From positions 1 to 32,492 of the forward strand of contig VBWE01000029.1 of NCBI GenBank assembly GCA_006218065.1: a DNA stretch of 32,492 nt, written 5' to 3'. This stretch comes from Bacteroidota bacterium (GTDB lineage Bacteria; Bacteroidota; Bacteroidia; Palsa-965). Under the pieces are notes generated by a model that was given only the letters and a program-made list of their open reading frames with translations, ran no database searches and had not been told where the DNA came from. Every line of letters starts with the position of its first letter. Within the stretch, counting starts at the first letter, position 1. The translations under genes were made by a program, and so were the position numbers. Of this stretch, positions 9,013 through 13,897 are shown one piece after another.

Positions 9013-9699
9013 TCACGGCAGCACAAACCGGTAACCCACGCCTTTTACGGTAATGATCTCGATCGAAGTATCCTGTTTCAGGTAATTGCGCAGGCGGGTA
9101 ATATATACGTCGAGGTTGCGGGAGTTGAAATAATTATCGTCGTTCCATATTTTTTTCAGGATCGCGCGGCGGTCGGCGATTTCGTTCGGCTGTTCGGCGA
9201 GCAGGCGGAGCAGTTCGCATTCGCGGAACGACAGTTTTTTTTCTTCGCCGCCGAAAACAAGCACCTGCCGGTTCAGGTGAAGCGTATACCGGCCGAGCTG
9301 CAGCGTATCCGTTTTACTTTTATTTTCTCCCGACGGCAGGCGAAGCACGTTCTGTATCCGCACGATCAGTTCTTCCATGCTGAACGGCTTGCGGATATAA
9401 TCGTTGCCGCCGAGCGAAAAACCTTCCACCACGTTTTCCGTTTGTGTTTTTGCCGTGAGGAAAATAATCGGCGTGGAAATTCCTTTTTCCCGCATCTCGC
9501 GCGCAAGCGTAAACCCGTCTTTGTTCGGAAGCATCACGTCCAGTATGCACACATCCGGCAGCACCCGGTCGAAAAGTTCATGCACGTTTGCGCCGTCGGT
9601 TTCCATGTACACTTCAAAGCCGCGGCTCTCGAGACTTTCCCGGACGATCTTCCCGAGAAAGGGTTCGTCTTCCACGTACAGTATTTTCAGTTCAGCCAT
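9013..9699 (-). CDS. OmpR/PhoB-family response regulator
   Basis: This 228-residue cytoplasmic regulator has a receiver domain at residues 1-118, with the acidic pocket E10/D11, phospho-acceptor D54 (CILDVMLPNKDG), T82 and K104 (YIRKP). A winged-helix DNA-binding domain follows at about 130-228 (LSFRECELLRLLAEQPNEI to ITVKGVGYRFVLP). The ATG at 9699 puts the receiver strand KILYVEDE at the N-terminus; an upstream extension of 32 codons is only the other frame of the kinase gene. The gene overlaps the 3' end of the histidine kinase gene by 8 nt, so the two are translationally coupled and almost certainly cognate. OmpR-type proteins bind direct repeats about 10 bp apart. Such a block (TTAACC repeated at 10 bp) lies upstream of the kinase and of the GLPGLI gene; the link is inferred. 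Confidence 0.93.
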   Translation of the reverse strand: MAELKILYVEDEPFLGKIVRESLESRGFEVYMETDGANVHELFDRVLPDVCILDVMLPNKDGFTLAREMREKGISTPIIFLTAKTQTENVVEGFSLGGNDYIRKPFSMEELIVRIQNVLRLPSGENKSKTDTLQLGRYTLHLNRQVLVFGGEEKKLSFRECELLRLLAEQPNEIADRRAILKKIWNDDNYFNSRNLDVYITRLRNYLKQDTSIEIITVKGVGYRFVLP

Positions 9700-11095
9700 G
9701 GTTTCTCGGTAAAGTGATGGTGAATGAACTGCCTTTGCCCGCGCTGCTGTCCACGCCGATCGTGCCACCGTGTTTCTGCACGATGCCGGCCACATAGCTC
9801 AGGCCGAGCCCGTATCCTTTTACGTTGTGCCGGTCGCCCTGCGGGACGCGGAAAAACTTTTCGAATATTTTTTTCGTGTATGCCGGCGGAATACCGATGC
9901 CGTTGTCGCGCACTTCGAGTTCGAGTTCTTTTCCTTTGTCGCGCAGCGTGATGCGGATCACCGGCCGGTCGCCGGAATATTTAAGCGCATTATCCAGCAG
10001 GTTGAATAAAACGCTGGCGATATGCAGCCGGTCGGCATCGAAACGGAAATCGTCTCCTTCGAAAACAAGGTCCACGTCCGCCTGGCATTTTTCAAACTGC
10101 AGCCGCATCGAACCGGTTACTTCCTGGGCCAGCGCATGCAGATCGACAGGCTCTTTGTTCAGCTCGAGTTTGTTGTTCTCGAACATGGAAAGTTTGAGCA
10201 CCTTGTCCACCAGGAGCGAAAGGCGCTGCAATTCTTTCTGTGAAATTTCGAGATACTCGCGCCGTTTTTCCGGGTTCTCGCCCGCGTTGAAATTCTGTAT
10301 CGCTTCGATGGCTACGCTCACGGTGGCGATCGGCGTTTTCAGCTCGTGCGTGATGTTGCTGATGAACTGGTTTTTCTGTTCGGTGAGCCGCTGCTGGTTG
10401 CGGAGATTCCGGTACAAAATCAGGAAAGAGAAAAACGTGATCAGCACAATAAAGGCCGAAACGGCGATCTGCGGCCAGAGCCGGCGCAGCAGCACGCCCG
10501 AATAATTCCCGATTGCCGCCCGGTAAGCCATCCGGTGATCGATACCGGCGGGAACAGGAGCAGTGGTGAGGAAACCGCCCGGTTTGTTCAGCGTATCGTC
10601 CCAGTTCACGCGGTAAAGAAGTACGGGCATCGTCAGGCCGGCGGAATTCAGTTTTTCACGGAACGTGGCCTTCATGTTTTTTTCAGAAACGGGCCGGAGA
10701 AAAATTTCTTTCCTGAAATGGAGCGAGTCGGATTTCCATTCCACGCGATGCTTCACCGACGGTTCGGCAGGAACCGGTGAAATGGAATCGGTGGTAATGC
10801 TGACGTACACCTGTGTCGCAGCGGGCGGACCATCGCCCGGGCCGGAGCGGCGGCGGCGGATCACGTCATCATCCTCGAAGATCATGACGTCGTTTCCGTC
10901 GCCCCTGCTTTTTTTCTCCAGCAAACTTCCGAACTGCAGTTCGAATGCCGTTTCGCGAAGCATCATGCTGGTTTCTTTTTTCAGCAGTTGCTTTTCATTA
11001 TCGTAGCTGCTCTTCAGCCACCACGATTGAAACGACACGATCACCAGCGTGGTAATCGCCATGGCGACGAACGAAATGCGGAAACGTGATTTCAC
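9692..11095 (-). CDS. Membrane sensor histidine kinase
   Basis: The 467-residue inner-membrane kinase has transmembrane helix 1 at about residues 8-28 and helix 2 at about 208-228, with a periplasmic sensor domain of about 180 residues between them that I do not recognise. The dimerisation domain carries phospho-accepting H250 in ISNITHELKTP. The ATPase domain has the N box NLLDNALKYSG (365-375), G1 DNGIGIP (397-403), F box FEKFF (411-415) and G2 GYGLGLS (427-433). It should phosphorylate the response regulator encoded immediately downstream (8-nt overlap). The start is a GTG at 11095. A perfect -7 box TATCTTTG ends only 4 nt before it, so the mRNA is probably leaderless or nearly so. An ATG at codon 12 is an alternative but would remove half of the first transmembrane helix. 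Confidence 0.92.
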   Translation of the reverse strand: MKSRFRISFVAMAITTLVIVSFQSWWLKSSYDNEKQLLKKETSMMLRETAFELQFGSLLEKKSRGDGNDVMIFEDDDVIRRRRSGPGDGPPAATQVYVSITTDSISPVPAEPSVKHRVEWKSDSLHFRKEIFLRPVSEKNMKATFREKLNSAGLTMPVLLYRVNWDDTLNKPGGFLTTAPVPAGIDHRMAYRAAIGNYSGVLLRRLWPQIAVSAFIVLITFFSFLILYRNLRNQQRLTEQKNQFISNITHELKTPIATVSVAIEAIQNFNAGENPEKRREYLEISQKELQRLSLLVDKVLKLSMFENNKLELNKEPVDLHALAQEVTGSMRLQFEKCQADVDLVFEGDDFRFDADRLHIASVLFNLLDNALKYSGDRPVIRITLRDKGKELELEVRDNGIGIPPAYTKKIFEKFFRVPQGDRHNVKGYGLGLSYVAGIVQKHGGTIGVDSSAGKGSSFTITLPRNHG

Positions 11096-11099
11096 GGAA

Positions 11100-11107
11100 C
11101 AAAGATA
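11100..11107 (-). promoter_or_regulatory. -7 box directly upstream of the kinase GTG
   Basis: The minus strand has TATCTTTG, a perfect TAnnTTTG box, 4 nt before the GTG start at 11095. Transcription would begin at or next to the start codon. Confidence 0.6.
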
Positions 11108-11135: not shown

Positions 11136-11151
11136 TTAACCTTAATTAACC
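11136..11151. promoter_or_regulatory. Direct-repeat operator candidate TTAACCTTAATTAACC, site 1
   Basis: Two TTAACC hexamers are spaced exactly 10 bp apart, 28 bp upstream of the kinase -7 box. The identical 16-bp block recurs at 12828-12843 before the GLPGLI gene. The layout fits an OmpR/PhoB-type regulator site and suggests autoregulation of the kinase/regulator operon (inferred). Confidence 0.5.
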
Positions 11152-11193
11152 CAAATGGATTGGTTTAAACGGAAGCCGCTTTTACGATTTTCG

Positions 11194-11264
11194 ATTTTGG
11201 ATTGCCGATTTGCGATTGCTGATTTAAATCCCCAATCGGCAATCCCCAATCGGCAATCCAAAAT
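11194..11264. repeat. Intergenic palindrome, GATTGCCGATT family
   Basis: There are perfect 17-bp arms, ATTTTGGATTGCCGATT (11194-11210) and its complement (11248-11264). Inside them are short reiterated units of the type AATCGGCAATCCCC. The palindrome lies in the divergent gap between the kinase operon and the membrane-protein gene. Confidence 0.85.
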
Positions 11265-11270
11265 GGTTGC

Positions 11271-11278
11271 TACCTTTA
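11271..11278 (+). promoter_or_regulatory. -7-like box TACCTTTA 4 nt before the ATG
   Basis: The box matches TAnnTTTG at every position but the last and ends 4 nt before the ATG at 11283. It is one of four genes in the window with this short spacing, which suggests a leaderless message. Confidence 0.45.
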
Positions 11279-11282
11279 TCCC

Positions 11283-12590
11283 ATGCGCTTGCTGCACCGG
11301 CTGCTTATTCCGCTGATCTTCGTTTTGCTCACCTGGTATTGTTCGAATATCTACTGGAGCAGCGATAAGTGGAAAAATATTATCTACTCCGATGCCAAAG
11401 GCTATTATGCGTACCTGCCTTCCCTGTTTATTTATAACGACCTGAACCTCGCGTATTTCGATGCGATCGAGCAGAAATATTACAAGGATCATTCATCGGA
11501 TTTCCGGACGTACGTTCACGGCAGGGGACATATTTCCAAATACTGGTACGGGGTCGCCCTGCTCGAATCGCCGTTTTTCCTCGCGGCACACGGGTATGCG
11601 AAAATCAGCGGCGCGGATGCCGACGGGTATTCGAAACCTTACGCGATAGCGGTGAACCTGGCGGGTATCGCGTATCTCTGCCTCGGGCTGGTTTACCTGC
11701 GCAAACTGCTGCGTTCCTATAAAGCGTCCGACCTGCAGAATTCGTTCATCACGGTCTGCATTCTTTTCGGGACGAATCTTTTTTACTATTCCGCTGTCGA
11801 ACCGGGCATGTCGCACGTATATTCTTTCGCCGCGATCACCATGTTCATGTGGTATTCGCGTATGTACGCCACGGTCAATTCCCTGCGTTACCTGCTTTAC
11901 TGCGCGGGACTCCTCGGGCTGATCGTCGCCATCAGGCCGGTGAATGCGCTCGTGATCCTGTGGGTTCCCGCGGTATGCGGAGGGTATCGCGAATTTCTCG
12001 CCCTGCTGAAAAGCACCTTTTCCAGGATCCGTTTATTCCTTCCCGCGGCCGGCGTGTTTTTGATTCTCGCCTGTTTGCAATTCGTCATTTTTAAACTGGA
12101 AACGGGAAACTGGTTTTTCGATTCGTATCCCGGCGAAAATTTCGATTTCACCCGGCCGGAACTTTTGCCTTTCCTGTTCAGTTACAAAAAAGGCGTGTTC
12201 GTTTACCTGCCCATTTTGCTGCTTTGCCTGCCCGGTTTTTACGGCTGGTGGAAGTTCAGGAAATTTTCTGCCGTTGTCCTGCTTACGCTTTTCCTGCTCA
12301 TCATTTATGTTTCCGCATCGTGGTGGTGCTGGTATTACGGCGGAAGTTTCGGCATGCGCGTGATGGTTGACTGGATGGCGTTTTTTGCCATACTCATGCT
12401 CTTTACTTTCCGCCTTATTCCTGCGCGGTCCTGGCGTTTTGTTTACGGAGGCGCAGCCGCGCTGCTCATGCTCTTCTGCCAGTTCCAGACCTTGCAATAC
12501 CGGTATAACGTGATCCACTGGTCGGAAATGAACAAGCAGAAATACTGGGAAGTGTTTATGAATACAGATTTCCTCAAGAAGAAAAAATAG
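11283..12590 (+). CDS. Polytopic membrane protein, GT-C glycosyltransferase-like
   Basis: The 435-residue integral inner-membrane protein has about 9-10 predicted transmembrane helices: residues 5-20, then a large loop, then clusters at about 125-145, 150-170, 180-200, 205-230, 255-275, 295-320, 328-350, 360-380 and 390-405. The first periplasmic loop contains IYSDAKGYYAYLPS, an acidic residue shortly after TM1 followed by aromatic residues, as in GT-C enzymes that use polyprenyl-phosphate sugars. The charged C-terminus ends KKKK. There is no other catalytic signature, so it could be an orphan glycosyltransferase or a membrane protein of unknown role. It stands alone, divergent from the kinase operon. 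A -7-like box ends 4 nt before the ATG. Confidence 0.72.
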   Translation: MRLLHRLLIPLIFVLLTWYCSNIYWSSDKWKNIIYSDAKGYYAYLPSLFIYNDLNLAYFDAIEQKYYKDHSSDFRTYVHGRGHISKYWYGVALLESPFFLAAHGYAKISGADADGYSKPYAIAVNLAGIAYLCLGLVYLRKLLRSYKASDLQNSFITVCILFGTNLFYYSAVEPGMSHVYSFAAITMFMWYSRMYATVNSLRYLLYCAGLLGLIVAIRPVNALVILWVPAVCGGYREFLALLKSTFSRIRLFLPAAGVFLILACLQFVIFKLETGNWFFDSYPGENFDFTRPELLPFLFSYKKGVFVYLPILLLCLPGFYGWWKFRKFSAVVLLTLFLLIIYVSASWWCWYYGGSFGMRVMVDWMAFFAILMLFTFRLIPARSWRFVYGGAAALLMLFCQFQTLQYRYNVIHWSEMNKQKYWEVFMNTDFLKKKK

Positions 12591-12632
12591 TCTTTTTCCG
12601 GTAGAGTTTCCTTTTAAGTAGTCCGAAAAATT

Positions 12633-12740
12633 TACCGCAGGGGCGCGGAGAGCGCTGAGCCTACTGCACATACTCTGCCGCAGAGATTTTGAATGCTCTG
12701 CGAATACCCTGCGCCTCTTGCGTCTCTGCGGTGAAGAATT
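12633..12740. repeat. Degenerate palindromic repeat, family C
   Basis: The outer arms ACCGCAGGGGCGCGGAG and the complement-like CGTCTCTGCGGT enclose further CTCTGCG units. A related but more decayed stretch with CTCTGCGCCCCTGCAGTGAAG lies at about 25680-25826. Together with a fragment of the family D element (12780-12822) it fills most of the 323-bp gap between the genes at 11283-12590 and 12915-13718. Confidence 0.65.
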
Positions 12741-12779
12741 AAACGGAAGGATTGTTTAAACCCGGAGCAGGTAAATCCT

Positions 12780-12822
12780 GGCGACATTCCTGTAATACCA
12801 ATCCTGCCGACTGCCGCTTAAT
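12780..12822. repeat. Partial copy of the family D element
   Basis: The stretch beginning ACATTCCTGTAATACCAATC and ending CTGCCGACTGCCGCTT matches the right half of the core plus the right arm of the element at 20419-20696, with several substitutions. It looks like a decayed fragment. Confidence 0.55.
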
Positions 12823-12827
12823 TCCTG

Positions 12828-12864
12828 TTAACCTTAATTAACCTAACATCCATCCCGCTTAACC
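12828..12864. promoter_or_regulatory. Direct-repeat operator candidate, site 2 (three TTAACC boxes)
   Basis: TTAACC occurs at 12828, 12838 and 12859, with spacings of 10 and 21 bp, so all three lie on one face of the helix. The first 16 bp (TTAACCTTAATTAACC) are identical to the block before the kinase operon at 11136-11151. The last box is 21 bp upstream of the -7 box at 12886. Confidence 0.5.
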
Positions 12865-12885: not shown

Positions 12886-12893
12886 TACTTTTG
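12886..12893 (+). promoter_or_regulatory. -7 promoter box TACTTTTG
   Basis: This is a perfect TAnnTTTG match 21 nt upstream of the ATG at 12915, downstream of the triple TTAACC block. It is the likely promoter of the GLPGLI gene. Confidence 0.6.
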
Positions 12894-13740: not shown

Positions 13741-13817
13741 ACGTCACACTGAGCGCAGACGAAGTGTGTGTAACGGGGTCTCTTTTACACACACTTCGTC
13801 TGCGCTCAGTGTGACGT
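13741..13817. repeat. Dispersed hairpin repeat, family A, copy 2
   Basis: This palindrome has perfect 33-bp arms (13741-13773 and 13785-13817) that begin ACGTCACACTGAGCGCAGAC, with an 11-nt loop. It follows the GLPGLI gene and leads into a T-rich stretch, and so could act as a terminator. Copy 1 is at 4619-4693. Confidence 0.92.
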
Positions 13818-13897
13818 CTTTTATTTTTTGCTTTTGTTAATTGTCTTTTTGCTTTTGCCTTTTGCTTTTTATTTTTTGTTCCCATTCTCCCTTCAGT

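Follow-up and report, generated by a model that had tools for sequence, protein, structure and literature searches.

Two genes of the window analysed here (a 32,492-nucleotide stretch from a Bacteroidota bacterium), the head of a two-component operon and a gene for a GLPGLI family protein, are preceded by an identical TTAACC repeat block. Judged by its conservation, this block is a genuine and widely conserved DNA element of Bacteroidota. It very probably serves as the operator of the adjacent OmpR-type system. Through it the system would control its own expression as well as the GLPGLI gene and a single gene for an outer-membrane beta-barrel, in a regulon of one to few operators. Since the operator is conserved between the regulator and GLPGLI promoters and a further copy lies before a barrel gene, the regulator most likely controls itself and a few cell-surface genes.

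The locus and its repeated block

Features of the locus are collected in Table 1. The kinase and regulator form one minus-strand operon (9013-11095) of OmpR/PhoB type: the regulator combines a receiver (Response_reg, 89.7 bits) with a winged-helix Trans_reg_C domain (70.1 bits), and the membrane kinase carries HisKA (56.8 bits) and HATPase_c (101.8 bits), all above gathering cut-offs. The regulator ORF as listed (9013-9795) is an over-extension. The periplasmic domain of the kinase was modelled with a mean pLDDT of 75.8, its middle part being poorly predicted. The GLPGLI product reaches 130.9 bits with TIGR01200 (curated cut-off 50) and also passes PF09697. The ORF at 11283-12590 was absent between kinase and GLPGLI genes in the relatives examined and is best regarded as lying outside the ancestral cassette.

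Table 1. Coordinates of genes, operator copies and predicted promoter elements in the window
Feature	Position	Strand	Details
OmpR-type response regulator	9013..9699	-	Response_reg + Trans_reg_C; likely start MAELKILYVEDE, overlapping kinase end
Sensor histidine kinase, 467 aa	9692..11095	-	HisKA + HATPase_c, N-terminal membrane/periplasmic part
Predicted -7 element TATCTTTG (TAnnTTTG), kinase/regulator operon	11100..11107	-	28 nt from box 1
Kinase-side operator copy (putative)	11136..11151	+	TTAACC 11136-11141, N4, TTAACC 11146-11151
Membrane protein ORF	11283..12590	+	Between both operator copies; weak LA_3751/LA_3752 putative glycosyltransferase family match, below cut-off
GLPGLI-side operator (putative)	12828..12864	+	TTAACC at 12828, 12838, 12859; offsets 0, 10, 31
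Predicted -7 element TACTTTTG, GLPGLI promoter	12886..12893	+	22 nt past last TTAAC
GLPGLI family protein, 267 aa	12915..13718	+	TIGR01200; N-terminus signal-peptide-like

Two other repeats were observed. An imperfect palindrome (11184-11267; 31-nt arms, 90% complementary, with 14-nt direct repeats AATCCCCAATCGGC) lies between the kinase-side operator and the ORF starting at 11283, and a long inverted repeat (GTCACACTGAGCGCAGACGAAGTGTGTGT... and its complement, 13743-13818), terminator- or REP-like, directly follows the GLPGLI gene on its 3' side.

The first-pass annotation had described a 16-bp block before the kinase/regulator operon and the GLPGLI gene, followed on the GLPGLI side by a third TTAACC 21 bp further on. 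The coordinates confirm this: the 16-mer TTAACCTTAATTAACC occurs at 11136-11151 and again at 12828-12843, the third TTAACC occupies 12859-12864, and the box starts are 10 and 21 bp apart. The window contains two exact TTAACC-N4-TTAACC matches, compared to a mean of 0.01 in 100 dinucleotide shuffles, none of which contained two. Genome-wide scans were performed as pattern searches with mismatches allowed. The window's own genome (5.26 Mb) holds four exact matches, and its reversed control none; the motif is therefore not frequent at random genome positions, and such frequency is what the same annotation had named as fatal to its proposal. Taken together, genome count, reversed control and shuffles rule out a chance repeat as the origin of the block.

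Three of the four genome matches are the identical 16-mer (11136, 12828 and C76:17101, the last on another contig), of which the first stands before the kinase/regulator operon, the second before the GLPGLI gene and the third before a gene for an outer-membrane beta-barrel. At the C76 site a TTAACC follows at the same distance downstream, then TACTTTTG, then the barrel gene, whose product matches PF14905 (110.2 bits) and CarboxypepD_reg (43.4 bits), both above cut-off. The fourth match, C60:85466 (TTAACCTGCGTTAACC), has a different spacer; it coincides in part with the 3' end of a coding frame, and chance probably explains it. When up to two mismatches were allowed, each of 10 genomes contained one to three operators, compared to a single reversed-control match in total. 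Among the extra operators checked, L283 lies beside a barrel gene, L292 by a gene whose secreted product weakly matches the GLPGLI profile and L293 by a gene for another secreted protein; L289 and L290 are background-like.

Conservation and promoter geometry in relatives

Conservation was approached from the protein and from the DNA. When 395 genomes of the class were searched with only the kinase (E<=1e-72), orthologues turned up in nine, the window genome included, and a TTAAC array is present in all nine. It lies before the kinase in eight; in the remaining genome, G247, a single operator is followed by one operon of barrel, GLPGLI, kinase and regulator genes, all in the same orientation (L071:3434-9864). 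Several of the nine carry a further operator copy before a barrel gene.

In the same 395 genomes, a loose 15-nt pattern (TTAAC-N5-TTAAC-N16-TTAAC) matched in 89. Because reversed controls also occurred in many genomes, these sites were judged by gene context and not by raw counts: among 62 sites examined (60 loci), 38 stand directly before a divergently oriented histidine kinase gene, another two precede a barrel or GLPGLI gene, and 22 have no cassette gene beside them. A strict 19-nt operator, TTAACnTTAATTAAC-N16-TTAAC, gave at least 117 matches in a public genome collection of 257 Gb, where about two are expected by chance (uniform-base arithmetic, not simulated). All 80 records examined out of these at least 117 come from Bacteroidota, and 78 directly adjoin kinase (68), GLPGLI (61) or barrel (6) genes. 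At L167 the kinase and GLPGLI genes are slightly farther away, and L182 is alone among the 80 in having none of the three genes in the stretch examined.

It had been proposed to scan this and related genomes for TTAACC-N4-TTAACC; the scan bore fruit in the window genome, where three of four matches precede cassette genes, and failed in the other genomes of the class, where most two-box matches are background-like and no commoner than reversed controls, so that this pattern was abandoned as a class-wide motif. The concern that the site might not be conserved upstream of orthologues is answered by the operator being kept before those of both genes across Bacteroidota.

In G006, a genome of the same family, a single operator is located between the divergent GLPGLI gene and kinase operon, with TTAACC reading towards GLPGLI. 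Each window copy is oriented to its own gene as in this shared operator of relatives. Since one operator there serves both divergent promoters, the opposite orientations of the two window sites, previously held to be a weak point, are no longer a problem: the layout is the usual divergent one, with a gene now between two operator copies. The kinase-side copy has two boxes only, the box expected at +31 (11167) being absent, and an outward -7 element at the conserved spacing is missing too. Both absences are what one would predict for a copy whose sole present task is the kinase operon.

The TAnnTTTG sequence is the Bacteroidota -7 element, a known promoter type. On the GLPGLI side, 54 of 78 loci have its start 22 nt past the last TTAAC, and six have it at 12 nt; on the kinase side, where it lies on the opposite strand, 57 of 80 have its start 28 or 29 nt away from box 1. 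Both window promoters match the conserved spacings exactly (22 nt and 28 nt, respectively). At L176, L181, L192, L205, L210, L212, L225, L227 and L244, several of them from Chitinophagaceae, the element lies 11-12 nt from the last TTAAC, about one helical turn closer. Promoter geometry played no part in choosing the loci, and we consider its fixity the strongest mechanistic evidence in the analysis. Tandem direct repeats with a period of about 10-11 bp at a promoter are typical of OmpR/PhoB-type sites, and the offsets of 0, 10 and 31 with a fixed -7 distance agree with the earlier suggestion of such spacing. In relatives, conservation at offsets 20-24 is weak, which suggests a degenerate further half-site.

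The regulator and its probable operator

The best NCBIfam match of the window regulator is RprY (NF051850), at 248 bits against a curated cut-off of 370. Scores of the RprY-clade regulators tested span 271-443, mostly 329-443, and some members fall slightly below the cut-off as well (329-354); GLPGLI-type regulators score 208-248. In the regulator tree, the RprY clade is separate from a group with 94/92 support that unites the GLPGLI-adjacent regulators and contains one further regulator not scored as such. By score and tree position, the window regulator is distinct from RprY: an OmpR-type regulator of a sister clade.

Related TTAAC arrays also occur at RprY-clade operons, where box spacing is the same and promoter geometry similar, and the recognition helices of the two groups are nearly identical (SRNLDVYITRLR in the window regulator, SRSMDVYIAKLR in RprY-type proteins), so an RprY paralogue could bind too. 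In the extreme case the genome's RprY orthologue (C9 locus) would be the main protein recognizing the operator, the adjacent regulator having another target and the cassette being a member of the RprY regulon. The published description of Riemerella anatipestifer PhoP agrees with this, in that TTTAACA motifs in front of GLPGLI genes are bound by that regulator (PMC9603813). We nevertheless find such an arrangement unlikely, since window-type operators (TTAACnTTAATTAAC-N16-TTAAC) follow the GLPGLI-type cassette, and since 10 family genomes have neither GLPGLI-type kinase nor operator, nine of these 10 having a related kinase that matches the conserved paralogue. In the set of 12 family genomes (five of them less than 90% complete), kinase orthologue, over-cut-off GLPGLI gene and operator occur together only in G000 and G006.

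Several features of RprY-clade operons were noted in passing. They often have four TTAAC boxes (several loci within L105-L159; offsets 0, 10, 20/21 and 31) and in many genomes adjoin an aldehyde-dehydrogenase-like gene of about 480 aa. In another genome of the class, a TTAAC array (L110:6061-6096) precedes two genes, the first for a DegQ/HtrA-like protease of 468 aa and the second a sigma-70 gene (287 aa), which suggests a related regulator with a role in envelope stress; L108 and L151 share this layout, judged by gene size only.

That some other TTAAC-reading factor binds, linked to the cassette by proximity only, is conceivable insofar as the contact between regulator and operator is itself deduced, and is very improbable given the third site: it lies on a separate contig, before a gene whose homologues sit within the cassette elsewhere, so proximity alone is no explanation. 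A mobile, structural or chance repeat, to which the flanking of an ORF missing here in relatives and the palindrome adjoining the first copy might point, can practically be dismissed, as only three 16-mers exist in 5.26 Mb, each at fixed spacing from a cassette-gene promoter, their likeness stops after about 19 bp, the site is kept across families without the intervening ORF, and copies in unrelated contexts with target-site features were not seen in the window's own genome.

We infer that the adjacent regulator, rather than the RprY paralogue, binds the operator; binding may activate transcription, and the signal could be a condition of the envelope or outer membrane. The phosphorylated regulator would bind tandem TTAAC half-sites one or two helical turns apart (0, 10, 31 and perhaps about 20) and act on -7 elements at a fixed distance on either side, about 28 nt for the kinase and 22 nt for GLPGLI. 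The regulator would autoregulate its operon and also control the GLPGLI gene and a single PF14905 outer-membrane beta-barrel gene. In most relatives one operator would serve the divergent kinase/GLPGLI pair, and in the window genome, with its intervening gene, each promoter would have its own copy. The best reading is thus an autoregulated envelope-sensing system with a putative regulon of one to three operators. Autoregulation with GLPGLI as a target had been predicted in the first-pass annotation, and operator placement, conservation and gene association argue for it; new relative to that reading are the third site, in front of the barrel gene, the constant distance of both -7 elements from the operator, and the RprY-family kinship.

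GLPGLI proteins and known systems

In the literature searched, largely outside subscription journals and with the GLPGLI name appearing in only three papers, we found neither an established function for GLPGLI proteins, which are named by a sequence motif, nor a divergent operator or cassette of this kind. A structure model of the window protein was built from 59 aligned relatives (mean pLDDT 88.9). The best structural match is the N-terminal domain of PNGF-II (Z 15-16), followed by MucB, LolA and RseB (Z about 8-10) among other half-barrel proteins; with LolB included, the range is about 6.6-10. A fold by itself shows no function. The fold is tentatively predicted to be LolA/RseB-like. RseB and MucB are envelope-stress regulators in other phyla, and the likeness suggests a possible feedback role for GLPGLI. 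Tentatively, and with more doubt than conviction, GLPGLI could be a periplasmic feedback co-sensor that has a lipid or lipoprotein as its ligand and tunes its kinase, in the manner of RseB or CpxP in Enterobacteria. If so, the result would be an envelope-sensing loop specific to Bacteroidota, with a divergent TTAAC operator in common and a link to a single outer-membrane barrel.

Across several Bacteroidota families, the operator ties GLPGLI proteins to one specific regulator and one outer-membrane barrel, and this link makes the role of GLPGLI directly testable. Half-site spacing and promoter distance could also be read as a grammar for this two-component family, allowing regulon prediction from sequence.

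Among known systems, CpxR recognizes a GTAAA-N5-GTAAA box, autoregulates and drives envelope genes; the 10-bp repeat of this box is that of GTTAA-N5-GTTAA here. The other resemblance is that of the predicted GLPGLI fold to RseB/MucB and LolA. In contrast to these likenesses, sequence kinship with CpxAR/RseB of Enterobacteria is shown only at the level of the OmpR family. RprXY of Bacteroides and Porphyromonas is alike in that RprY is the best-matching family of the window regulator and its clade carries related TTAAC arrays; it differs by the sub-threshold score (248 vs 370 bits) and by the separate clade that the window regulator shares with GLPGLI-adjacent regulators. Published work on RprY argues for repression (PMC3646045), and a binding motif, looked for in an RprY study, was not found.

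HaeSR of Porphyromonas gingivalis (PG0719-PG0720) is likewise a two-component system that binds its own promoter, and it controls TonB receptors (PMC3764172, PMC8757827); two GLPGLI genes, PG1492 and PG1908, are expressed lower in a PG0720 mutant (PMC8757827). In the accessible portions of these reports it differs from the window system in being concerned with hemin acquisition and capsule, and a TTAAC operator is not reported.

The nearest precedent, by analogy with its published description in the portion accessible, is PhoPR of R. anatipestifer (PMC9603813). There DAP-seq gave 583 peaks, in contrast to one to three operators per genome here; PhoP both activates and represses, its motif was compared with that of ArcA by the authors, and a fixed divergent operator common to GLPGLI is not described in that portion. 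The likenesses are a two-component system, a motif whose core is TTTAACA, and binding upstream of its own operon; direct targets comprise GLPGLI proteins, five in number, as well as one TonB-dependent receptor and one outer-membrane beta-barrel protein. As far as this description extends, motif, autoregulation and targets provide independent support for the binding proposed here.
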